A stretch of DNA of 64,000 nt from Pegea sp. RAD2-039 (taxonomy: Eukaryota; Chordata; Thaliacea; Salpida; Salpidae), in contig JAQGEQ010000015.1 in the NCBI GenBank assembly GCA_034620365.1, positions 62,001-126,000 on the forward strand. The letters run 5' to 3'. The translations under genes were made by a program, and so were the position numbers. The notes under the pieces were generated by a model, which saw only the letters and a program-made list of their open reading frames with translations, had not been told where the DNA came from and did no database searches. Below are positions 13,384-58,400 of this stretch, piece by piece (the stretch's first letter is position 1; each line of letters begins with the position of its first letter).

Positions 13384-15044
13384 TGCCAACAAGTCTAATT
13401 ATCGGACTTTCAGTTGGATCATTTATACTACTAGTCACTAGTTTAATTTTGTTATGGTAAGTGAAACTTAACTTATAAGTCGAGTTTTATGAAAAGTTAA
13501 TGGGCTAAGTAAATGAAGAAAATTTGAGCTCATAATATTTGTTAAACATTAGACATAGAAAGTTATTTTTAAAAGAATTTGTTTTCAGGTTTTGCAAACG
13601 TAAGTCTGTATGGCCTTTTAAAAGTAATCTATCAGAATCTGTAACTTCAGCTCAACCAGAGAACAAGGCGGCAACAAGCATTTCACAAAATAGTGATTCT
13701 AATTCACTTTGTAACGAGCAGGATAAGTTTAAAACTCCCAACTATGAAGAGGGAGATAAAGAAAATTTTAAACAAATTTATAAAAAAGACCCTAATTTTG
13801 AAACTCCAAAAAAAATCAACAATCAAAAAAACTCCTTAAAAAGTTCTCTAAAAAAGAAAAAAGCTAAAGATGAAAAGCAGAAGAATAAGCTGAATTACAT
13901 CAGCGAAGACAAGACCAGCTCAATAAACTTCAATGAAAAAAGTTATAATTTTGAAACAATAGAGGAGAAACCATCATCATTTGAGCACATCAACTTATCT
14001 GGTACTGTTAGTCATCTTAAAGAACCTTCTTTGGGTATACAAAGGAATATTTCATCTTTTGAAAAAGGTTTCTCTCTCGCCAATGCTTTTAATTCAGTAA
14101 AAAAATCCTTAGGACATAATAGCACATCTGGGTTAAGAAGCAAACCAAGCGATACATCTGATTATGTGTCTGACTTAGAAAGTCGAAATCCTTCAAGAGC
14201 AGGAACATTCTCACAGCATGAAAATTATCACATTGAGAATAAGAGTGGGAAGTTATCGCAAAGTTTTTCCGATGTTACTGAGTACTTGCAATATAATTAT
14301 CAATTCATAAAAGCTCCTAGTTATAAACAAGGTGCAGGACAACAAGAAGAAACACAAGATCTCGATTCACGAAATGAAAATAATGTTGACTGCGAAGGTA
14401 AACCATCGCAAAAGAACTATTCGAACCGACGAACGCGAAGTAGTGAAGACAGCAGTGGTTTCAGTACTATCATAACAGAAGAAGGTGCGAAAAAGCGACA
14501 CTTTCGAAATAAATCGATCACAGAAGAGAGTTTATCAGCTGCAATCAATCAGCAGGCTTCTCGAACAATTATCGAGCTTCCTATATACTCACAGGCAACG
14601 TGGAGCGGGCCAGGAGGTATAAAGAAGAAACGAAGAGAAAATAAGAAACTACATTTGAAGGAGAAGAGATGGAATATGGAATCAAGCTCAGACATCAATC
14701 ATAGCACAAAAAAATCGAATATTAAAACTTCAAATTGTCAAGGAATGCCAACAAATGGTCCTTATTTATGCGCTCATTACAAATCACTGCCTATAGACAT
14801 GAGTCATCTACCTAAGGAGCTTATTGCTAAGATAGGTGGCCAACCAGACCGGTTGTTAGAACCAATTGACCAACTAGACTTCGCTCATTTGTGTCGTCCT
14901 TTGCCAGATCGGTCCGCAGCTAAAGAAAGCTCGAAAAGAATGGTGATTGAATCATTACATTTACCCCCGGGACACAGTGATATAGAAGTACTTTCTGGGA
15001 CCTATGAAGACCAGGACACTGGTATAGTTAGTACAGATCTTTGA
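13380..15044 (+). CDS. Unrecognised single-pass membrane protein with long basic/Ser-rich cytoplasmic tail
   Basis: Exon 13380..13456 encodes MMPTSLIIGLSVGSFILLVT and further hydrophobic residues to Trp. It splices through a GTAAGT donor to the large exon 13589..15044, restoring one frame of about 510 residues. Residues 4-26 form one hydrophobic membrane segment, followed at once by FCKRK, a positive-inside stop-transfer signal. This suggests a type III (signal-anchor) topology with about 480 residues in the cytoplasm. The tail is low complexity: Lys-rich at residues 85-130, then Ser/Asn-rich, with several basic-x-x-Ser sites such as RNKSIT. The last 100 residues are better ordered (PIDMSHLPKELIAKIGGQPD). 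The protein ends in STDL, which fits a class I PDZ-binding motif ([ST]-x-hydrophobic). No family was recognised. It could be a scaffold or receptor-like adaptor, but nothing proves this. Confidence 0.75.
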
Positions 15045-19050: not shown

Positions 19051-23791
<4,741 letters not shown>

Positions 23792-24876: not shown

Positions 24877-27787
<2,911 letters not shown>

Positions 27788-30700: not shown

Positions 30701-31209
30701 AGCAGATCAAATTCATTTATCGTTTTATCAGGTAGTCACAAACTCAGAATAGTATTCTAAAAATCAGCCTTTTAAACTAGATTTAGATGAAAGTTGTACA
30801 TAAATAATATAGTCAAGTAAACAGTTGTTTAAAACTGTATTTCAAGTTACTTCTACTTGTTGTGGTTTGAGTTATTTTAAAAGTTTATCTTATTCAATGT
30901 TTTTAATTTAAGTAAAATCGCTTAGTATAAAGTTTTTCTTTTTAATTCATAAAATAATTGAAGTATTTTCGAGTATTTGTCTCGAGTATTTCCACCCGCT
31001 AAGTAAATATATTTTAGAATTCTGAACTTAGTTTTATATCAAATTACGAACTAGATAAATAATCATTACAATGAGACTGTAGTAAAATACTGATTGAATG
31101 AAAAGCCATTTATAAAACATTTTTAGAAAGTGAGTGAGTCAAGTTAGGAAAGAGTCAATTAAAGAAATAAATTAGTGATAAAAGATGCATCAGATTATTA
31201 GATTTTGCG
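27788..31209. other. PAK copy B 3' region and AT-rich intergenic DNA
   Basis: No gene was recognised. Short ORFs at 29961..30173 and 30279..30485 are AT-driven, hydrophobic and without family features. The stretch leads up to the microRNA-like hairpins, so the promoter of a primary microRNA transcript could lie here, but no core promoter element is convincing. Confidence 0.4.
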
Positions 31210-31289
31210 ATGCTTATATTTCATAGGTAGTCGTAAGTTTTGGTTTTGATGACAATCCAAAACTTACGCCAACTTATGCAAAGAAGCAT
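31210..31289 (+). ncRNA. Candidate microRNA precursor, mir-196-like
   Basis: The 5' arm 31222..31243 pairs with the 3' arm 31257..31278 around a 13-base loop. The inner 12 base pairs are perfect (CGTAAGTTTTGG with CCAAAACTTACG). The outer ten positions hold two mismatches and one G-U. An outer stem ATGCTT/AAGCAT (31210..31215 and 31284..31289) closes it after a small internal loop, giving about 80 nt in the shape of a pre-miRNA. A 22-nt 5p product at 31224..31245 would begin UAGGUAGU, identical to bases 1-8 of miR-196, with weaker similarity after that. The 3p arm would leave a two-base overhang ending at 31278. In vertebrates mir-196 lies in Hox clusters and targets Hox mRNAs. Here it lies 3.7 kb past the Hox12 stop, on the opposite strand. 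A diverged let-7 relative is the main alternative (let-7 shares AGGUAGU). Confidence 0.72.
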
Positions 31290-31336
31290 ACTTTCTTCAA
31301 AAAACTTTTCATCAGAGATGAATGCTTTGTGATATC

Positions 31337-31408
31337 TTGCCTTGGTTACCCTGTAAGAATGCTACTTGCAGCTCTAACAAATAGCATTTTTGCAGGTAAT
31401 AAAGCTTG
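31337..31408 (+). ncRNA. Candidate microRNA precursor, mir-10-like
   Basis: The 5' arm 31346..31368 pairs with the 3' arm 31378..31399 around a nine-base loop. The pairing TTACC(C)TGTAAGAATGCTA / TAGCATTTTTGCAGGTAA has one bulged C, two G-U pairs and one mismatch near the loop. Pairing weakens below the arms, as expected at a Drosha cut site. A 22-nt 5p product at 31347..31368 would begin UACCCUGUA, identical to bases 1-9 of miR-10. The CUGUA form fits miR-10 better than miR-100 (AACCCGUA). The remaining bases differ from known miR-10. It lies about 50 bases after the mir-196-like hairpin on the same strand, so both could come from one primary transcript. In vertebrates mir-10 lies near Hox4 paralogues, so linkage to Hox12 would be a rearranged arrangement. 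Confidence 0.74.
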
Positions 31409-34400
31409 TGTATACATCCATCTTATTTCAGCAGTAATTAATTCAAATTATGATTTGAGAGATTATTTTTTGCTAGCTGGATTATAGGTTAGAAATAAAT
31501 TAAAACAGAGAACATCAAGTTTTATGAGAAAACAATTTTTTTTTCATGAAATTAAAAGGAACTAAATGATGTTGAAGATATAAGAAGGATCTTCAACTTT
31601 TCTATGTTAGCCGATCAATAAAAATATATATAGCTAATGACTTGCAATAATTTTAAGTGCCTTAAAAAACTCAAGGATTGCTCAGATTATTTGTAATTGA
31701 AAAAGTTTTAACAGAGTAGTAATTAAATACCTCAATACTAGTTTTATAACTAAAAAATGTTTTATAAAACAAAAGGTTAGTAAAGCTTAAGTGCATTACT
31801 TTCCAAACTAACTTTATGAATTTTTAAGAAGTGGCTAAGAGTCTAAACTGATGATATTTTTGTATGTTGGTATACTATCAATATTTTGTGTAATTAGTTT
31901 GTCCAGTATGCTTTAAGTGTCTTTTTATGACTTTCATAAAGTCATATAATGCTAATAGCATCAAAAATGTTTAATCAATTATTTCTAAAGATTAATTAAA
32001 ATGTTCTTGAAATTATTTAGACATTTATTTAATCTGATTGATAAAATAAACTAAAAAGGTGTAAATAGTTAAACAAAATTCCAAACTTTTATCGTTAATC
32101 TATTTTAGATATAGATTTTAATAAAATGTTTTTATACCCAATAAAAGATAATGTAAAGTTTTATCCAGGACTCTATACTCTGAAATTATTGAATATTCTA
32201 ACTCATTTATACAAATGGCAACCAGATGTTGGTATTCTAAAATTAAAAAAACAAATTGAAAATAATTTTTTGCGAACGTTTTTGCTTGGGCTGAAAGTAC
32301 GTGAGGTTGTCTGATGTTACTCGTTTGATATCTATCCGTTTTACAACTATTTACTGACGACTAACATAAAATTAACTATTTCAAAAGAGGTTTATGAAAT
32401 GCTTGAACGATGTTGACATACTACAATACAGTCAAATGAGCTTGATAGAAAAATTTCCTTTCAAAGAAAAAGTTGCTGCTGTTTAAAAAGCTCATCTGTA
32501 AACAAGTAAAAGCAAAATTGACTAGGCTTACTTAATTTAGATATTAAAAGACCACATCGAAAGTACGGTAAATATTTGTGGAATTTATTACATCAACAAT
32601 GGTACTATTTTCAAAATGTTATTCTTTGAGAATAACAATTATGGATTTTTTCTATGAAACATACATATTTTAAACCTTTAAAGAAAGATTACATTTATAC
32701 AAGCTGTACGTTTTTACTATAAACTATTACTAACTATATTAGATAGTTTTCGAAAAGTTGCATTAGTTTATGATAGTTAAATACTTATTTCAAAACCTAA
32801 ATAATTAAAAACTTTAAATATGTGATTTATAAGGAATTGATTTTTTATTTGATAGGCTTAGAATGCACCCATGCTTTAGCAGCTTTGAAGCATAAATTAT
32901 GAAAAAGTTTCTTAAAAAATATTGTCGCTTTGCTCAATAAAACAATTTTGATATTTTCTGAAACACTAAATTTGTTGTAAAAACTTTTATAATCTAAAGA
33001 TAAACTTCTAAACTTTTTTAAAATGAATTTATGTTAGTTTTATAAATCGTGTAAATCATACAGTTATCTATTATATAAACTTCTACATTACAATATTATA
33101 TTTGGTGTTTTTCCTAGTTTATAAGCTTGTTCAATATATTTTTATAAAATGGCCGACTATAAAATAGATTAAGGTAAAATAAAAAACTTTAGTATTTATA
33201 CTCAAAAGAAACATTTCTCTTCAACAAATCTTATGAATTAATGATTGATTTAAATATAAGAAATTACTTCTAAGAGTTTCAACTAACTTAAAAATCAGTC
33301 AAATAATGTTGATAAAGTTTCATTGATCTTACTAATTCTTTGAACCTAAAACAACTTTTTTCTATAACTAAAATAATTTTATAAATAAGTTACCAAAGTG
33401 TAGCTGAGGTTGTTGCAGAGAAAAAACATTCTTTTATTAAAAGCTCGATTAATTTTCAAAATTTTCAGTTAACAGTCTCATTATGAGAAGATGATGAACC
33501 ATCACTATTAAAATGTTGAGCTTGGTAAATACAGTATTTTTGAAAATGTCTGTATGTTCAAAATATAAAGCATATTCATTAATAGAAATAATTTTTTAAA
33601 TATTTTAAATTAAACTGATTAATAGCTTATATATTGATTTTACCCTTTACAAATGATTAGTTTGCTCATGAAACAAAGATCTAAAGCTCGTTAGTGTTTT
33701 TAATGACTTTGTTTTTATGATTAAGTTAGAAATTATTATGATCAGTTATAGAGAAGATGATGAACTTTCTAAAACATCATAATGATTTTTTATTAAAAGT
33801 CAAAAATGGTTTGCGTCAATCTTTATATCAATAACTTTTATAACATGGCCAGTGAATAATTATTATAAAAATATTAATTAATGTTTGTATTGATCAAATA
33901 AATATTTAAATTACAATTTTCTTCTATAATATTTATTGTAAATTTGAATTTTTATACTTTCATAAGCTACTTACACCTGTTTACATACTTTTATTAGCCT
34001 GACTGATAATTAATTTTATTAATATCATGATATTAGGATTTTTTGTTCTGAAATATAATATGGTCTTTCAAGAGTTGATTGTCTCACATCGTAAAAATCT
34101 AAATTATTTGGAAAGCTCGTCACCTTGATCTTTTAAAGTTTTCTCAGTCAGTTATAAGACAAGTTTTAATGGTCGTTAAACGATTTTTGACGGCAACAGC
34201 TTAAAGTCTCTTTAAGATAAGAAATAAATTGAAATTAGTTTTGATATATAGTTTGATTTGTTTGCTGGAATTGGTATTTTTATTATAACTGTATGTAAAA
34301 CTAATAATCGGCATCAAAACTATTTATTTTTAAATTTTAAATCAAACAAATAAAGTAAGTCTTTTTCATCTACCTTTGCTACAAAATCTTGATAAATTAT

Positions 34401-34951: not shown

Positions 34952-37552
34952 TTACTGTAATCTCTCATCTAAACTCGGTGTATTAATACAACTGTTTTCT
35001 TCACTAGACATAGATGACGTTATAAAAGGTGTTTCATCGCGATGACGTAATCGTTTCTTTTTCATTCGACGATTTTGAAACCAAATTTTGACTTGACGGT
35101 CTGTAAGTCCAACCTTTGTTGCAATGACTTCACGAAGCTCGCGGCTTATGAATTCGTTTCGATTGAATTCTCGCTCTAACTCGTTCAGTTGGTGTTTGGT
35201 GTAAGGTCGACGACGCTTCGGGCGTTTGTCGTTCAGCTGAAGAGGATCAACTGTAGGAACGTGATGCAAAGAGTTGTTGGATGCTACTGCAGGATGAGGA
35301 TAAGGATGATGAGAAGATATGAAGGAAGATCTACTCACTGTAAAGAGTAAACGTAGTTAAACTTCTTCTTTGAAATAAGGTCTTATGGATACAAATAAAA
35401 CATCCATGTTATGATCTTTTTATAAACAGTAAAAAGATAAGTTATTTTCAAATAGATATTTATCAGAATGATGATTCTATGACTTGAATCATTTTCTTGT
35501 CTACAATATGCGACTTTTACAAGCTTTTTATTTGATTAAATGCCGATGAAAATTTGAGTAAGTTAAGCCTTAGTTAAAAGAAGTTATTTACATAAAAAAA
35601 ATTGGCTTTTTATGTTTGATTTTTGTAATTAAACAAAATCATTCCTCAGTTAAATTATAGAAATTTGTTTTGTCAGATTCTTCGCTTTTCAAAACTTACA
35701 AACCTGCTGAAGCTGTAAAATTTGGATATTCTGGAGGGAGATGAGGCTGAGCGTATGTATAGTAAGGATACGAAGAAAAAGTTTGATATGAAGGATGATA
35801 ATGAGGTGTAATTGAATGTGAATAGCTCTCCATACCTTCAAAAAAGTTAATTCAAAGTTTTAAAATTAAGAAAATAAGTGGTAAGCCAATTAAAGTTTCT
35901 AGAAATTTCAAAGTTGATATTGAAGCAAGTAAAGTAATTAAACTCATTTTGTGTTTTATAGAAGCTAATCAAATGTTGTCGACAACTATATTATCTAGTT
36001 ACTGCGACGTTTAAAGTTTGGTTAACGATAGTTTTTAAGCAAACAACCCAATATCCTGATTAATAAAATGGCCGCTATAAAATAATCCCTAAATAGTTTG
36101 AAGGTAATAATATTTTCCCCGGGGATTTCAAGCTAAGCTATGTTTAGTATTTATAAAATAAACGCTTGCTGCTTTTTAAATTAAGTTAATATAAAAAAAA
36201 ATTAAAATCTGTAATGAAATATTTCTTATAACAACTATTTTCATAAACATTTATATAAGTGTTGTACTTCAATAACTAAAAAACATCAAGAAACCCAAGC
36301 TTAAAATTTAACCAACCATAATAAGAATTTTGCAGGTTGAGAGATTGAAGTAAATATTTAAAATTTTATGATAGCTATAATCTCTGAAATTAGTTAATAG
36401 AGCTTTAAGGTTTTACTGAAAACTAAACAAATTATGTTTTCATTTTTCATAGTTGTTTTATTTTTAAATAGAGAATAAATCTTGTTTACTTTTGAAAATC
36501 TTCTGAAAAATTATAATTAAAAGTTTAAAAAAATGCTTACACACTGCCTTAAACTCTACTGCATACAGAAAAAATTGTTTTAGTAATCTTGTTATTTTTA
36601 ACAAATTGTATTTAAAAGTTAGCATTTAATAGTTTCCTTTGACTTTATTGTTGCTAAAAGGTTAATCAATACAAGATTAACAAATTTTCAAAATTGAAAA
36701 TAACTTAAAAAAATATATAAATTACCATAATTATCTTCTTAATATGCAATTAAAATAATTTTCATTAATAAACCTATATATAGCAACACTTACAAAGTTT
36801 TTATTAAACAAACTTAAGTAATAAACTTTCGATCATAAAATTTGGTCAGATATAAACAGTTGCAATAAAACTGTCGAAACATTCCATCAATTACTACAAA
36901 AAAGCAGTAAATTTTCAATTTTACAATTATATAAACGCTTCAATAATTTAAGAAACCTCAAAGTTGTATTTCTTGGCTATTAACAGACATTACCTCGAAA
37001 ATAGAAGCCATCAGGTGATTGAGCCGAAGTCATTCGGTGGTAATCGTTGTGGTGGTTGTGGTGGTTGTGTTGAGGTAAAGATGTAGGAATGTGATGATGA
37101 GCATTCTCTGCTTCATAACTAAAGCTGATCTTATCACCGGGATATATAAAATGGGGGTCTTGAGGATGAACATAAGAATAAAGATCATTGATGCCACTCT
37201 TTATCTGATAAGTTTCAGGATTCAAAGAAGAATGCATCGATGGCTCTGATCCTAATCCTGATCCTTGGATTTGTAAAGATGATTCAGAAGAAGAATCAGC
37301 TGTAATCATTTTTTGATCATATTTGTATTCTGAATTGGAAGTTTGGATTAGAGCAGTTAGTGTCCTAGATGGAGATGTTGCAGAAGAAGAACTGTACATC
37401 TGATGATAATTGCTTGAATCAGATTTTAGAGCTTCTGTCGGGTTGTTCATTTTGCTAAGAGGATAGTTTGGATAGTTTGCATAATTATTGTGGTTTGTAT
37501 GATGACTTGCAGAAGGTTGTTCAGGTAAGATTCCAGTATAAGAATGATTCAT
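34952..37552 (-). CDS. Hox12: Posterior Hox homeodomain transcription factor, Hox12-like
   Basis: Three exons in transcript order, 37552..36994, 35835..35704 and 35337..34952, join with phase 1 junctions into 358 residues from ATG 37552. The first 230 residues are rich in Ser, His, Tyr and Pro (a typical activation region) and hold runs such as [11 protein letters not shown]. The homeodomain spans about 269-328 with [17 protein letters not shown], Trp316, Gln318 and Asn319 at positions 48, 50 and 51. Gln50 fits Abd-B/Hox9-13 DNA preference for TTTAT/TTAC sites. NEFI in helix 1-2 and RRMKKKR after helix 3 match Hox12 better than Hox9-11 (RRMKMKK, RRMKLKK, RRMKEKK) or Hox13 (VKDKK). No YPWM hexapeptide was seen, as usual for the most posterior classes. 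It stands head to head with the Hox13-like gene. Hox12 is the likeliest class; a derived Hox9-11 is possible. Confidence 0.88.
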
Positions 37553-39861
37553 TTCAGTGATGATGATTTTAAGTTTAAAGAAAGATCACTTGATCGGTAA
37601 TTTCATTTTTTTTTACAATTTTTTATCTATCAATTTTACTACAACTAGTTTCAATAGCTGTTTGATGTTTAAAAGTATTTTTTAAATGGTTAAAAAGTCT
37701 TTGAAAAAATAAGTTACTAAGACTTTATGCTTAGAAGTAAATTCATGAATATTTATTTCTTTGTCTAAATAATAAAAACTACATTTAGATAAAAAAATTA
37801 TCATCAGCTTGAGTTTTCATAGGTATCATATGAAATAGATGTATCAAGAAGTTATTTGCAGTTTAGCAAATCTAAAAACTACTCAACCAATAAACTATAA
37901 ATTTAATTGATGATAATAGAAGCATTATCATCAAGTTAAATAAACTACGCAATTAGTAGGCATCTTTCTCGTCAAGCACAAGGCTTGTTTAAAATGATCT
38001 ATGATATTTTACAAACCAAAGTAGACCAATTTTTTTAATCTTCCCGCTGCACAACTAGAATAAGAGTTAAACGGTCAAACAAACTTAGATTAATTCAAGA
38101 GATTAGTCATACAAAAGAGTATGAACATATTTAGTTAAAGCTATAAGAGTATTAGATGTATAAACTAAACTAACAGTGCTGAGGTTGATGAATGTCTTAT
38201 ATATAAAAAGCTTAATGAACTATATAACTCTCTTTACATATGATCATTAACAACTAGCAACTAATACAAAAACGTTGTTAATTTACCACCTCATGTCCTG
38301 GCTTAACATGAAACAATAATATACAATTAAAAATATAATTTTTAAATAATATCTTCACATTGAATTTATTTTATCATAAATTTAATATTTTCATTTTTAT
38401 GGCAATAAGCTTAGTAAAAGTACGGTTAATTCCTTCTACTACAAATTTAAACTGACTGCATTTGTTAAGTAAACTAATTAACAGAGCAAATACTTGCTTC
38501 TAGAGATCTAAACTTAAACAAACTGTATATAAATACTTTGTTTCATACAGCATTTTCACATCGGCATTACAGAACTTTTGAATTCTTTGTTTTACCTGGC
38601 AATTAATGAGGCTGTAAAAACTAATTTTGTTTTCCGTCGGATTGATTATCAGGTAAAAATAAAAAAAAGAATTAATAATTGATAGTTGAAAAATTTCAAT
38701 TCCCTGTTTAGTTAGCATTTAGATAAAGTTCATTAAAATAAGATCGAGGTAACATAATTAAAGATTGAGCTTATATTATCTAACATACTTCTTAATTTTT
38801 ATATATACAGCAATCAAATTCTTTTTATTAATTTTTAAAGATAATATAATCAGCTACAGCAAATTCATTAAACCTATAAAATAAAGCAAATTAACTTAGC
38901 CATTCCTACAAAACTTATACAAGTTCAGGCTATTTTCTGCTATTTCTATCTTGTAATTGTATAAAAGTTTTATTTTCTAAACTATTTTTAAATAAACTTA
39001 TTTATAAAGTACAATTTGATAAAGTTGTGACCAAACATATATACTTGAATTAATTTAAAAATGAAGAACTGCTCTGAATGAATAATGAAGAAGTTTTATG
39101 AGTTATCTTATTATGATATTTAAAAATGATTGTCGATCAATATGAGATAGTCAAGCACAAAATATTTATCTGAAAGATAGATTATATGAGATAGAAAACA
39201 GGTTGACATAACATTTAAAACTAGTTTTAGAAATACATCTAAAAATATTCAACTTCAGATCAAGTTTATTATAAAAAACAATTTTTAATTATTCATAAAT
39301 TACAATAATCAGTCGCAAGAAGCAGTGAACTCATGACTAACGTTTCAAGAGTTGTTAATACTTCAAATTTGATTTGTGTTTTAACCTTCCAAGATTTAAG
39401 ATTAGCTTCTATGTAAGTCTATCAGTTAATCAAGTTCTTGTTAGTTGCTTAATTCACCGACATCGAAGTTAAATCAGTTGATTTATGGCTGAATAAAGCA
39501 AACTTAGAACGCCGGATCTATGTTTGTTTGACAAAGAAAAGTAAAGACTATGTAAAAAATCTGCAAATCAAAAAATATATTTTCGTAGAAGAAAAAGTAA
39601 ATATTTTGTTAAAGGTTTGCTTTCTGAAAAATTTGGACAAGATTTTCAAACCTTCATGATAATTATATAAGTTTTAACTTTTCCTAATTATTGTTTGTAA
39701 CTAAAGTTTCTAAAATGGCGCTTGTTTAAAAAAGCTCACCCAGTGTAAACGTTTTTTTTATACAATTTACTAATTTTTACAAATTCAATATTTCTTTTGC
39801 TTAAAATTATTTATTGTCAATTTGAGTATCACAAGGAATAAAACTCTCTACTAGCTGGCAA

Positions 39862-52485: not shown

Positions 52486-55400
52486 ATGCTAAACAGTGAC
52501 CTGTTACAACCGCCTGACCTGACTCTGATGGAAGTCGGGACCAGCTGTCCTACAGTTTTATCATCACGGCAACAGGCCACTGGATGGTACCAAAACCCAC
52601 ATCCTTCTCAACAAATGGCCCACTTAAATCAAACTCCATCATTTATGACGCCGTTTAACCCGCCTCCATCAATGATGGGAGGTCCAACCAACCATCAAGG
52701 AGCAAATGTGTATAGTTCCTACCCTTACCATCACCATACAAGTCCTCACCCTCAACCACATCAAGCCATCAATTCTTCAACTTCTTCAATGAACCATCTT
52801 CTTGGAGCTGGTCCGCATAGCTACCATTCTGCGCATCACATGACCTTTCCTACATCTGTAGTTCCTGAACCTCTTCCAGGGAGTCAATTTCCTCTGATGA
52901 TAAACATTGAAAGAAACGAAGGTGATTTACTAAAAGTTATGATTAAAAAGATCTTTTTTGTTAATGTTTAAGTTTCAGCAATTGTTTAAATACCTTTTGT
53001 TTAATGGCTATTATTTTTATAGATTCATAGTCACGTTTAAATTGGTCATAAACTAATTTCACAGTTCATTAAATTGACTTTCACTTTTCCCACGCTGTCA
53101 TTCACAGTAAGGTTTATACAGCAACGCTTAATTTCTTACGATAGGTGATAATTTTAACGATTTAGTAGCTATGAAAATTATACAGTTGGGTTAAGTTGAG
53201 TTCGTTCACCAACTCTGCTTCCATTCAATATTTTACTAAGCTGTTACTTCATAAAAATGTTTGTATTATTACTACAGCAATCAATTAATTTTATATATGG
53301 TGGCTATTGTATAATTTTATTATTAAAATAATTTTACAGTTTAGTATAATAAACTAAACATTTTTTAGCTTTCATAGTCAAAGTACTTACATACCAAGTA
53401 TTTTAAAGTGTAAAAAACTTGGCGTGTTTACAGACATTTTGTTATTTAGTAGTCATATTGGCTTTGAATTTTGGTATTATCATAAAACGGCTTGAAAATT
53501 TTGATTTTAAATCTTTTTTGTTTATAATTTCAAGCAAACTTTCTATGAGCTGATTTTAATGCTCTTAACTTGTGATAGAAAGTAGTTTTAAAATGAAATA
53601 TTAATTTACAATAATTCATATTTACTTTGAAAGTAATAAAATCGCCGCAAAAAGTTAACATGATGAAAATTGCTTGTTAACATCAAGTGAACATTGAAAA
53701 AAAAACAAATTAGAATATCGTAAAATAGTCGTAAAAACTGTAAAAATAAACAAAAATATTTTGTTTCTACAGTTTACAAAAGTACATGAGTTTAATAATG
53801 TAATGTTATGACAAAAATAGCTTTTACTGCTAAAAATTGGTTTAGTTTAAACTTAGTTTAAAGTTTCTTAAAATAAAAATTGTTGATATTTGAAATTGAG
53901 GTTTCAGACTTTTTATAAAACATACCCAGCCAGTAAAAGCGACTAAATTTAATACCAAAAACTTAATACTCCAAGCGGTAAATCAAAGTAAGAGAGAGGC
54001 GGTTTTATAGCTCCTGTTCTAGTCATTTAATCGCCTCCCCTTTTTATTTAAAAGCAGATGTTATAGACTGTTTGCACTTAAACATTTCGGTTGTATTTAA
54101 TCCAACGGCAACTAATCCAAATCGTTAAGTAACTTACATAGGACTGTAACAGGTGTATCTTACACGCTCATCTTTATTTTACGACTTTTTATCAGAACTT
54201 TGTGAAGAGAAGTGAATATTTGGTCAGTTGTGTAAGGTCATCAGTGGTCTGAGGTTCTATTGGACTAGGTTTTATTTTATTTGGAAATTTCCGGAGCTGT
54301 ATTTACCAAAAAAATATTCACAAGTTTTTGATAAAAAACAAAATTAAGATTCTTTAGTTTATAGATGAAAAAAATAAAAATATTTATTTTAAGAATATAC
54401 AGATAAAAACTACTAGATTAGAGAAATTTAAAAAAACTCTCAGTTTGTCAACAAAAAAATCTAAAGTCCTAATTGATAGCTACTGAAGTAATTCATTTTG
54501 TTTATATTTTGGGATAAGTCATCTATAAATGTTTTATTGAGATTAACTTAATATTTTGTGATGAAACCTACGCAAGCTGTAAGTTTTGATTTTTGCCGAA
54601 ATTTGAAACTAAGTTGTTTGTGTTTGAATAACTACTTATAACCAACTGTACAAAACAAAAACTCGATACTAATATATGCAAAATCTGAAAAGGCTTTGCA
54701 GATTCAATGCTTTAGTTTCTTACCAAGTCATTTTAAGATTTTCTAAAACCAAAACGCTAATTATTGCTATCTGAGAAGATTTGAAACTTTTTTATCTTAA
54801 TCAGTTTTCTAAATATGTTTCAAATTCTCTACAAACCTAACAAAAATGTAATTTTTTTTGACGTAGTTTCATAAATCAAGTATTAAGTAAAGATAATTTT
54901 TCCGATTTTGTTGATAAATCAACCATAAAACTGTTTTATACTTACTAAACCAAATTTTTCTGATTATCAAGCAGAAATTTTCTTTTGTGAATAAATAGTA
55001 ATTTTTTTTTATATATTCAATTAGTGACAAGTTAATAAACTAATTTGAATAAATAATAAAATTCTTTAAACATGGTTGCTACTTGAAAACTAAAAATCAA
55101 GAATCATTGTATAAAGGGTCATGAACTTTTTCATCTTCCTCTTTTAACAAACCTTTCTTGATTTTGTATCAAACTGTTTGCTTTTATTCAAACAATTCAA
55201 GTTTGATGATTGGTCTTCGGGGTTACTTTGCTTTTTAATATAAAACCGTTTAATATTTGTTTTGTTAAAAGGTATTCATGATCTAACTATTTAATAAACT
55301 TGCTTTAATATTCGTAAGATTTAAGATAAATGTTGAACCTAATCACTTTTTTACGTAAATGTAAAACCCTACAAACTTATTTAATAGTTTTTTTTTCATT

Positions 55401-58400
55401 CAAATAAAAATGTTTCAGTTTTCTGAGGTGTTTCTTCCAAAAAAATTTCATAAGAGTAAAAAAAAAGTTTATTTACTTAAATTCTATTTATTTCTAATAT
55501 ATTTTCATAACTTTCATACTGTAAATTACAGTTTTGCAGCTAAGCTCGTTTGTAATGTAAAAAGTAGAAAAAAATTGAAAACCTAAAAAGTATTTGAAAA
55601 CGCTACAATTGAGTGATATGAAAATTGTTAAACTAAATTGTCCAAACGTAGCAGTTAAGATAAATAAAAGCTTCTTGCTGAGAACAAGCAGAATTCAAGT
55701 GGAGATGAAAGCTTTTGACTATGAGAATAAATCAGTTATTAGCTTCCATATAATTCTTATGTTCAATTCACAAAGTCATCTATAAAATCATAATAGGAAG
55801 AGATGGTTTTGCGGGTCAACTTGTATATCAGGACAACACAGTCAGATCGTGTGTCAATATTTTAGCCTTCAAAAAGCAGAGATGGTAAAGAGTAAAGATT
55901 AAAGATAATACTAAGAGAATAACAAAACGAAATTTACAGAGAGAAGAATACAGAAAGACGCAAAGACTGAACAGTTAAAGTTTATTGGTAAGCCATTTCA
56001 GTAAGCATATGTGGTTTTGGATTGTACGCTCATCGTAAAACAACGTTTACTCTTCAATCAAATTTCTATTTACTTTACACAAGTTACAATTTTTGGGACT
56101 TATTTTCATATTTTTCCGACTATTCACAGATGACACGGTTTTGTGATTAAAAATGTAATTTAGCCATGAGAACTTTAAATTGTTTAACTATTTGACAGAC
56201 ATGGTGATGTAATTCAAACAGTTGTTTTTAGAAAGTACAAATTGTAAAAATATGATTAAAATTCTAGTTGTAGAGTACTTACTGCAGTTGTTATTCTTAG
56301 GTTAGATTAATATCAAATCACAATACAGCAACAAAATATGCCGATACTCCTAAATATTTTTCAGTTCACCAAATTTTTACTTGAGCACAAAAGTTTATGG
56401 CAACATTTAAAGAAAAGAGTTTCCTATTTCATAACTCAAAATTTTGTTTCGCTTGTCAGCTGATAATAATATTCTACCAAATGTTTTGATTATAAAATAT
56501 TTTTGTTTTCAAAACAGTAAAAATACTTTCATTAAAACGTCTCATTTTGACTTTGTCGGATACATAGTCTTGACTACTTTTCGCTAATATTTCTTTGTAT
56601 TAAACAATTCTAACTTTTTCAAAGGATTCACTTGTGACTCTGAACGAGTTTTATTATTTTTACTAGGACAAAAGCGGCAGTCACCGTCCTTAAGGTTTCC
56701 TCATAACAAGTTTAAGTATTTCAATTATTTTAAGTTAAATATTAAGTACTGTACAAGTTTGTACCTAAAATCTTACCAAATTCTTACCAAAAATGAGTAT
56801 TTATTTTCTACACATAAATAGTTAAAAATAATTGTAAATTATATCGCCTTTACCTACATTCATTTAGAAAATTTGGTTTTATAAGCTGTAAAAACTTCAA
56901 TTTTAACAGCTTTTGCTTTCTATCCAATTATTTTTGTTAAATTTGCACATTAGGAAAATAAGAGATGACGACAAAAATAGAATTTTTCAATAAAATACTT
57001 CAATAATTAGTTTGAAGAGAAGTTATTGATGGAAATACTATTTGGCGCGATTTCCAACTGGTTTTATTCTATAAAAATCTACTCTGTTTTTACAAAACTT
57101 TATGAAATTTTCTCTAGATATTAAAAACTTGTTGAATTTTCAGTGTCAATGCCTCATCATCACCACCAAATTTCTTCTAACTCAACAAACGGAACTGGAA
57201 GTGGTTCTCATTCTCGAAAAAAGCGTCAGCCCTATTCAAAAGGACAAATTTCAAGCCTAGAGAGGGAATATCGGGCAAATAACTTCATCACACGGCAAAA
57301 GCGTGAGCAGATAGCACGCGACTTAAAGTTAACTGACAGACAAGTGAAGATTTGGTTTCAAAATCGAAGAGTAAAAGATAAGAAGTTAAAGCAACGTGAA
57401 CAAAAGGACCTTCAGGTTTGGGAAAGAATATTTGAAGGATAATTTTGTATAATAATTTTACTTTAATTGATTTGTAATTATGACTTCATTTTTTTTTATA
57501 AAAACATTTTGTCAGTAAATGTTGATATAAAAACACTTTGGATTTTTATAACTCTACACCTTTTCATCCAGTTATAAGTTTATTAATATTTTCAACTCTA
57601 AGTGCTGATACCATTTATGTGATACAAGTTTAAATAAAAGTAACTCTGTTAATTAGCTTAAATGTTAGATATTTTAAATGTTTTAAAATTATGGGCGGTA
57701 CACTATTATAATTAGCTTTAGGAATAATGATATATAGGAATTATTTCCATTTGATTTATTCATTACTTAATTATTACAATAAAAGCGAAAGAAGGTGCCC
57801 CCCGCTAACACACATTCTCACAAATAATACCTATTAAGTTAGAAATGTAAAAAGTAAAAGATGCAACACATGACATTTCGGAAGTCCTCAAAGCATATAA
57901 CAGTGAACAATTATATAAAATGACAGTATTATTAAAGAAAGAATCACAATTTAAAAACAACAATGTTGGCAATGTTATAACGGTTCAACTTCTGCTTGAA
58001 CAACACGAGTGACTTCGACATGGCAATGTCTGATGGCAGCTGGTTCCAAGTACTAATTGTGCGGAATGAGAAAAAAATTGATCTTATTAATGTACTGCGT
58101 GATATGGGCTTATTAAGATGTAATGTGTGTTTCTTTTTATTTTTATATGAAAAAAACAAAGAAATATATTTTATAGAAACTTAGTATTGTAAAGAAAGTT
58201 CCAAACAATATTAGAATTTGTTCAGATATAGCAAAAGTTCTTTTGTCTATTAAATAACAGTGATTCTTCTAACTTTAAACCAGTATTAGTACCATAATAG
58301 CATCCTAATTGTCAAACATACTCTTTCATTATTTACAGATAAAATTGTTATTATTTTGTTCTTATTAGCACCAACAAAAGTTTGTAAAATGGTTGCTCAT

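Follow-up and report, generated by a model that had tools for sequence, protein, structure and literature searches.

Results

The Hox Genes and the Two Hairpins

The window, i.e., the whole stretch of 64,000 nucleotides of Pegea sp. DNA that we analyzed, contains two Hox-like genes in opposite orientation, which form a divergent pair, and two stem-loops of the pre-miRNA type lying beyond the 3' end of one of them. The features on which the rest of this text relies are the following:

31222..31278, + strand: mir-196-like pre-miRNA hairpin (hairpin 1), tight stem-loop, with a basal stem reaching to about 31210-31289
31224..31245, + strand: predicted 5p mature strand, miR-196-like, from its match to Halocynthia miR-196
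31257..31278, + strand: predicted 3p strand of hairpin 1, from pairing with a 2-nt overhang
31345..31400, + strand: mir-10-like pre-miRNA hairpin (hairpin 2), tight stem-loop, from the fold and the 5p pairing
31347..31368, + strand: predicted 5p mature strand, miR-10-like, from a 9-nt 5' identity (TACCCTGTA at 31347-31355)
31379..31400, + strand: predicted 3p strand of hairpin 2, from pairing
34952..35356, - strand: Hox12-like homeodomain exon and end of the coding sequence (homeodomain E 9.2e-21)
36980..37585, - strand: probable first coding exon of the Hox12-like gene (open frame with ATG, no Pfam match, predicted splice)
52486..52971, + strand: probable first coding exon of the Hox13-like gene (open frame with ATG, no Pfam match, predicted splice)
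57125..57442, + strand: Hox13-like homeodomain exon (homeodomain E 2.3e-20)

The number 12 is the one that we take the first gene to bear, from the arrangement and from characteristic residues. When the two homeodomains were compared with the PDB, an engrailed construct (6m3d) ranked first for both, and the top Hox matches were Hox-A9, C9, B13 and A13 for the Hox12-like protein and Hox-B13 for the Hox13-like protein. The hairpins are located on the strand opposite to the Hox12-like gene, 3,552 bases beyond its stop, which bears out the proximity to a Hox12-like gene proposed when the sequence was first read.

Hox12 and Hox13 are also adjacent and oppositely oriented in Halocynthia and Ciona, according to a passage of PMC5602962. 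The homeodomain search, with 150 of 156 candidates scored, listed none on contig C235 besides these two, and this lone Hox12/Hox13 pair fits the statement, in a passage of PMC7337526, that Hox12 and Hox13 had no link to other Hox genes in the enterogonid ancestor. The same passage gives a distance of 7,676 bp between the Hox12 and Hox13 homeoboxes of Corella inflata, compared to about 22 kb here.

Elsewhere in the window, PAK1/2/3-like kinase exons are present in tandem duplicate on the + strand (21077-23541 and 26649-27585, 90-99% identity in three blocks), which may correspond to a recent duplication, to alternative exons or to an assembly artefact. A 502-amino-acid open frame (13536-15044, + strand) had no Pfam match at E 0.001.

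Folding and Layout of the Hairpins

The sequence-only reading had described two pre-miRNA-type hairpins on one strand, with the miR-196 and miR-10 seeds at their 5p starts, and we recovered both of them on the + strand: TAGGTAGT occupies 31224-31231 and TACCCTGTA occupies 31347-31355, and both stand where the 5p strand of a stable hairpin begins. That reading had also named the comparison with shuffled sequence as decisive. The fold of hairpin 1 (31222-31278) has an energy of -23.2 kcal/mol (z -6.4), the lowest MFE among the 27 hairpins of the window scan, and that of hairpin 2 (31345-31400) one of -22.0 kcal/mol (z -5.1); in each case none of 1000 dinucleotide shuffles equaled the tight hairpin. 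Hairpin 2 is weaker when wider flanks are included: its z falls to -3.05 and 8 of 1000 shuffles fold as well, while a second run gave z -3.35 and 1 of 200. The stem of an animal microRNA pairs 16 or more of its 22 mature bases; in the 87-nt scan frame, 18/22 bases of the putative 5p mature strand were paired in hairpin 1 and 20/22 in hairpin 2. Drosha substrates are known to carry a CNNC motif 16-18 nt past the 3p end. Such a motif starts 17 nt past the predicted 3p end of hairpin 1 (CTTC, 31295-31298), and another starts 15 nt past that of hairpin 2 (CATC, 31415-31418), both at or near the usual distance.

The tight hairpins are separated by 66 nt, instead of the 50 bases initially given, and their 5p starts by 123 nt, a layout that fits a two-gene microRNA cluster. 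AATAAA occurs at 31494 and 31617, and an 86-amino-acid frame spanning the hairpins (31227-31487) had no Pfam match.

The folding leaves the strand undecided, since the antisense strand forms almost equally stable hairpins, with z -6.0 (0/500 shuffles equal) for hairpin 1 and z -3.2 (4/500) for hairpin 2. These values could suggest that the minus strand, or both strands, are transcribed, producing antisense microRNAs read in the same direction as Hox12, and the Drosophila iab-4/iab-8 locus offers a precedent for transcription of both strands. However, base pairing alone predicts that the antisense of a palindrome will fold, and the family seeds stand at 5p starts on the + strand; we thus consider antisense microRNAs very unlikely and describe the locus on the + strand.

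Seeds and Hairpins Expected by Chance

Neither the seeds alone nor stable hairpins alone are rare, since 1.24 copies of TAGGTAGT and 0.16 copies of TACCCTGTA are expected by chance in the window, and since 72 of the 42,604 starts tested satisfied the hairpin criteria, yielding 27 hairpins over both strands (four of them being the hairpin 1 and hairpin 2 loci, each on both strands). Their combination was evaluated with random sequences of the window composition bearing the seed at the 5p start, a hairpin being counted when at least 17 bases were paired and the MFE was -22 or lower. A hairpin was formed in 13 of 24,000 trials with TAGGTAGT and in 8 of 24,000 with TACCCTGTA, and the combinations of seed and hairpin expected in the window number about 7e-4 and 5e-5, respectively. 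These figures apply to two Hox families that were picked once the result was known, whereas the sequence-only reading might have named other seeds. A genome-wide search (105.7 Mb) for the ordered seed pair with a gap of 100-130 nt gave a single match, and its reversed-pattern control gave none. The 231-bp hairpin stretch had no second copy in the genome, which counts against a palindrome derived from a transposon. The seed-hairpin pair is real and non-random.

One could still suppose that neither hairpin is a microRNA gene and that both are inverted repeats formed by chance, or old palindromic elements, which contain the seeds by accident in this AT-rich DNA. The 27 window hairpins satisfying the same criteria would agree with this, as would the structure of hairpin 1, an inverted repeat with 78% identity, and the top Rfam scores at 31000-31600, which belong to other palindromic families far below threshold (mir-548 with 29.9 bits for a cut-off of 90, mir-957 with 27.5 bits for a cut-off of 66). 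The missing second genomic copy, the joint rarity of seed and hairpin, the unique ordered pair, the likeness of hairpin 1 to ascidian miR-196 past the seed and the linkage in Ciona and Halocynthia (see below) all argue against such an accident, which we regard as improbable.

Hairpin 1 and mir-196

The mir-196 5p seed UAGGUAGU is present at the 5' end of the hairpin 1 arm. We compared the first 20 bases of this arm with the miR-196 of Halocynthia roretzi, using the sequence given in Table 1 of PMC5399378, and found 16 bases in common and 4 substitutions, making it the top site in the window (runner-up 14/20). The 12 post-seed bases agreed at 8 positions, a level reached by 0.37% of the window 12-mers. 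This resemblance to the Halocynthia sequence past the seed goes further than the initial reading, which had the arms diverged outside their seeds. In a gapped comparison with human miR-196 beyond the 5' end, 1060 of 2000 shuffles were as good.

The Rfam mir-196 model (RF00256) did not reach its gathering score in the window, and the locus was absent from the whole-genome scan (59 candidates scored), where this model gave one sub-threshold match of 21.6 bits, the seed being absent from the 120 bases inspected. More generally, no Rfam family reached its gathering score anywhere in the window, and neither mir-196 nor mir-10 was among the 18 matches obtained at 31000-31600 with E up to 10. As a control, miR-124 was found in the genome with 1 mismatch, indicating that the assembly contains ordinary conserved microRNAs.

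The location expected of a mir-196 gene, close to posterior Hox genes, was observed, the Hox12-like and Hox13-like genes being present in the window. Hairpin 1 is likely mir-196.

Other candidate sites in the genome were inspected with a mir-196 pattern made after the window sequence was known. With at most 1 mismatch, it gave 6 matches including the window, as many as in the reversed control (6). Four other 1-mismatch matches, when placed in the 5p arm, gave folds of -8.7 to -14.5 kcal/mol. A sequence on C32 shares 18/20 bases with Halocynthia miR-196, yet it was rejected because of its poor folding (z -1.09, 72/500 shuffles equal).

Hairpin 2 and mir-10

The mir-10 5p start UACCCUGUA is present at the 5' end of hairpin 2. 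Past the first 9 bases, the 5p arm was no closer to human miR-10 than shuffled sequence, 1114 of 2000 shuffles being as good or better; the 3p arm, compared with the human miR-10 sequence, was equaled by 527 of 2000. The Rfam mir-10 model (RF00104) did not reach its gathering score in the window, and the whole-genome scan did not return this locus (59 candidates scored); its one sub-threshold match in the genome (23.6 bits) had no seed in the 120 bases inspected. A search of the genome for canonical mir-10 with 3 mismatches gave 40 matches versus 62 in the reversed control, i.e., no canonical mir-10 signal. A pattern built from the 5p arm of hairpin 2 itself, with at most 3 mismatches, gave 4 matches including the window versus 1 in the control; the three further matches, which fold at -9.7 to -17.2, were discarded.

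Adjacency to Hox4, expected of a mir-10 gene, was not observed, hairpin 2 lying beside Hox12, and the 34 kb around Hox4 (C18:814000-847999) contained a single mir-10/100 seed word without a good hairpin. Another tunicate microRNA, mir-1473, has been traced to mir-100 (passage of PMC5006418), and as described there it resembles hairpin 2 in being a diverged tunicate microRNA of the mir-10/100 type. The 7 kb around the let-7 cluster on C42 contained a single ACCCTGTA word (C42:51476, - strand), outside any hairpin arm.

The papers disagree on whether tunicates retained miR-10. Its loss from tunicates is stated in a passage of PMC2148072, mir-10 was not identified in Ciona according to one of PMC2884542, and a BLAST search reported in PMC5602962 found no mir10 in Halocynthia; miR-10 is named where a Ciona savignyi survey dates microRNA families (passage of PMC5831862), and a 2012 review (passage of PMC3394115) places the Ciona miR-4069 in the miR-10 family.

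Hairpin 1 could be a genuine mir-196 next to a lineage-specific microRNA whose 9-base match to miR-10 is due to coincidence or convergence. The resemblance of hairpin 2 to miR-10 past these 9 bases, no better than that of shuffles, could be explained in this way, as could the lack of a mir-10 model match at the locus, the 0.16 copies of the 9-mer expected in the window and the reports on Halocynthia (PMC5602962) and Ciona (PMC2884542) in the passages quoted above. On the other hand, a hairpin with exactly such a 5p start is expected only about 5e-5 times in the window, hairpin 2 adjoins mir-196 at a Hox locus, and the Ciona miR-4069 found at posterior Hox genes is assigned to the miR-10 family in the same passage of PMC3394115. 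We consider a coincidental match unlikely and regard hairpin 2 as a probable, though diverged, relative of mir-10. The assignment to mir-10, which stands on 9 bases, on the location and on precedent, is weaker than the sequence-only reading supposed. Taking seed, location and precedent together, mir-196 is likely and mir-10 probable.

Search for Target Words near the Hox Genes

Canonical miR-196 and miR-10 7-mers were absent from the 3.55 kb located 3' of Hox12 and the 5 kb located 3' of Hox13, stretches that need not equal the UTRs. One miR-196 word was present 5.7 kb past Hox13 and another past the hairpins, on the strand that carries Hox12. The 7-mers were also absent from the 2.1 kb located 3' of the genes that we take to be Hox4 and Hox5/6 (again, the stretch need not equal the UTR), and as a raw count one miR-196 and one miR-10 word occurred within 1.6 kb of the presumed Hox1, these three labels coming from homeodomain tails and characteristic residues. 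Regulation of the neighboring Hox genes by the pair is not supported, since simple target words are absent from these stretches 3' of Hox12, Hox13, Hox4, and Hox5/6.

Other Observations in the Same Genome

Four let-7-type hairpins lie within about 600 bp on the minus strand of C42 (53785-54357), all below the Rfam gathering score (best 47 versus 53.5 bits). They adjoin a coding fragment for which HUWE1 is the top match in the PDB (E 4.6e-12) and are seemingly inside that gene; the mammalian let-7f-2/mir-98 sit in an intron of HUWE1. The 16-mer ATTCTATTTGAATAAG, the Ciona spliced leader, has 272 copies in the genome, and a tandem array of it with units of about 199 bp is found at C4:1135044-1142217, GTAAG coming next in the units inspected. 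This spliced-leader pattern supports the tunicate origin that the sequence-only reading had guessed.

Discussion

In vertebrates, mir-196 is flanked by Hox9 and Hox10, and mir-10 by Hox4 and Hox5 (passage of PMC3394115). The pair described here shares with them the seeds, the 5p position and the linkage to Hox genes. It differs from them in its tandem layout, its diverged arms and its place, past the 3' end of Hox12 on the other strand. The closest counterpart is that of Ciona, where the corresponding passage of PMC3394115 places miR-196 and the miR-10-family miR-4069 upstream of posterior Hox genes. There also, a miR-196 and a miR-10-family microRNA accompany posterior Hox genes; this likeness of the Ciona mir-196/mir-4069 concerns the described location, whereas here the tandem arrangement, the distance, the order and the strand are known.

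In Halocynthia roretzi, miR-196 is located at S54:165680-165756 (Table 1 of PMC5399378) and Hox11/12/13.b on S54 (section 16 of PMC5602962), which suggests that mir-196 and Hox13 are linked in this species too, provided that one scaffold numbering applies. This co-location emerges from joining the two sources, whose passages carry no comment on it. In contrast to the mir-10-like hairpin found here, no mir10 was found in Halocynthia according to the passage of PMC5602962.

We thus favor, with a probability of roughly three in four, the interpretation of the locus as a two-gene tunicate microRNA cluster, in which mir-196 is followed 123 nt further (5p to 5p) by a diverged gene of the mir-10 family, both of them lying past the 3' end of Hox12 and facing the other way. 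The two microRNA genes probably share one transcript. A single + strand primary transcript would carry both hairpins, Drosha and Dicer would cut both of them, and the 5p strands would be loaded into Argonaute. By analogy with other animals, these strands may pair through their seeds with the mRNAs of Hox or other developmental genes and reduce them, in the posterior region in which the neighboring Hox genes would be active.

The locus had been proposed to be a rearranged Hox-microRNA locus that kept its linkage. This proposal is supported in part. The linkage to posterior Hox genes stood, with the precedents of Ciona (passage of PMC3394115) and Halocynthia (passages of PMC5399378 and PMC5602962). 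As to its origin, the mir-10-like gene at Hox12 may have been relocated from Hox4, may be a duplicate, or may have formed independently. As a tentative scenario, mir-10 may never have been lost from tunicates; after the breakup of the Hox cluster, a copy would have landed in tandem with mir-196 at Hox12/Hox13, and the unit would have stayed with the posterior Hox pair while diverging outside the seed beyond the reach of homology searches.

In the openly licensed literature, which omits most subscription journals, we found no description of mir-196 and mir-10 standing in tandem in a tunicate. MicroRNA linkage to posterior Hox genes is not new as a kind, given the Ciona precedent (passage of PMC3394115). 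What this locus adds is a tight tandem linkage in another tunicate and a candidate for a microRNA that had been reported missing. It also points to a place, past the 3' end of Hox12, where every tunicate genome can be checked, and this makes it testable whether Hox-embedded microRNAs keep their linkage to Hox genes after the dispersal of the cluster.
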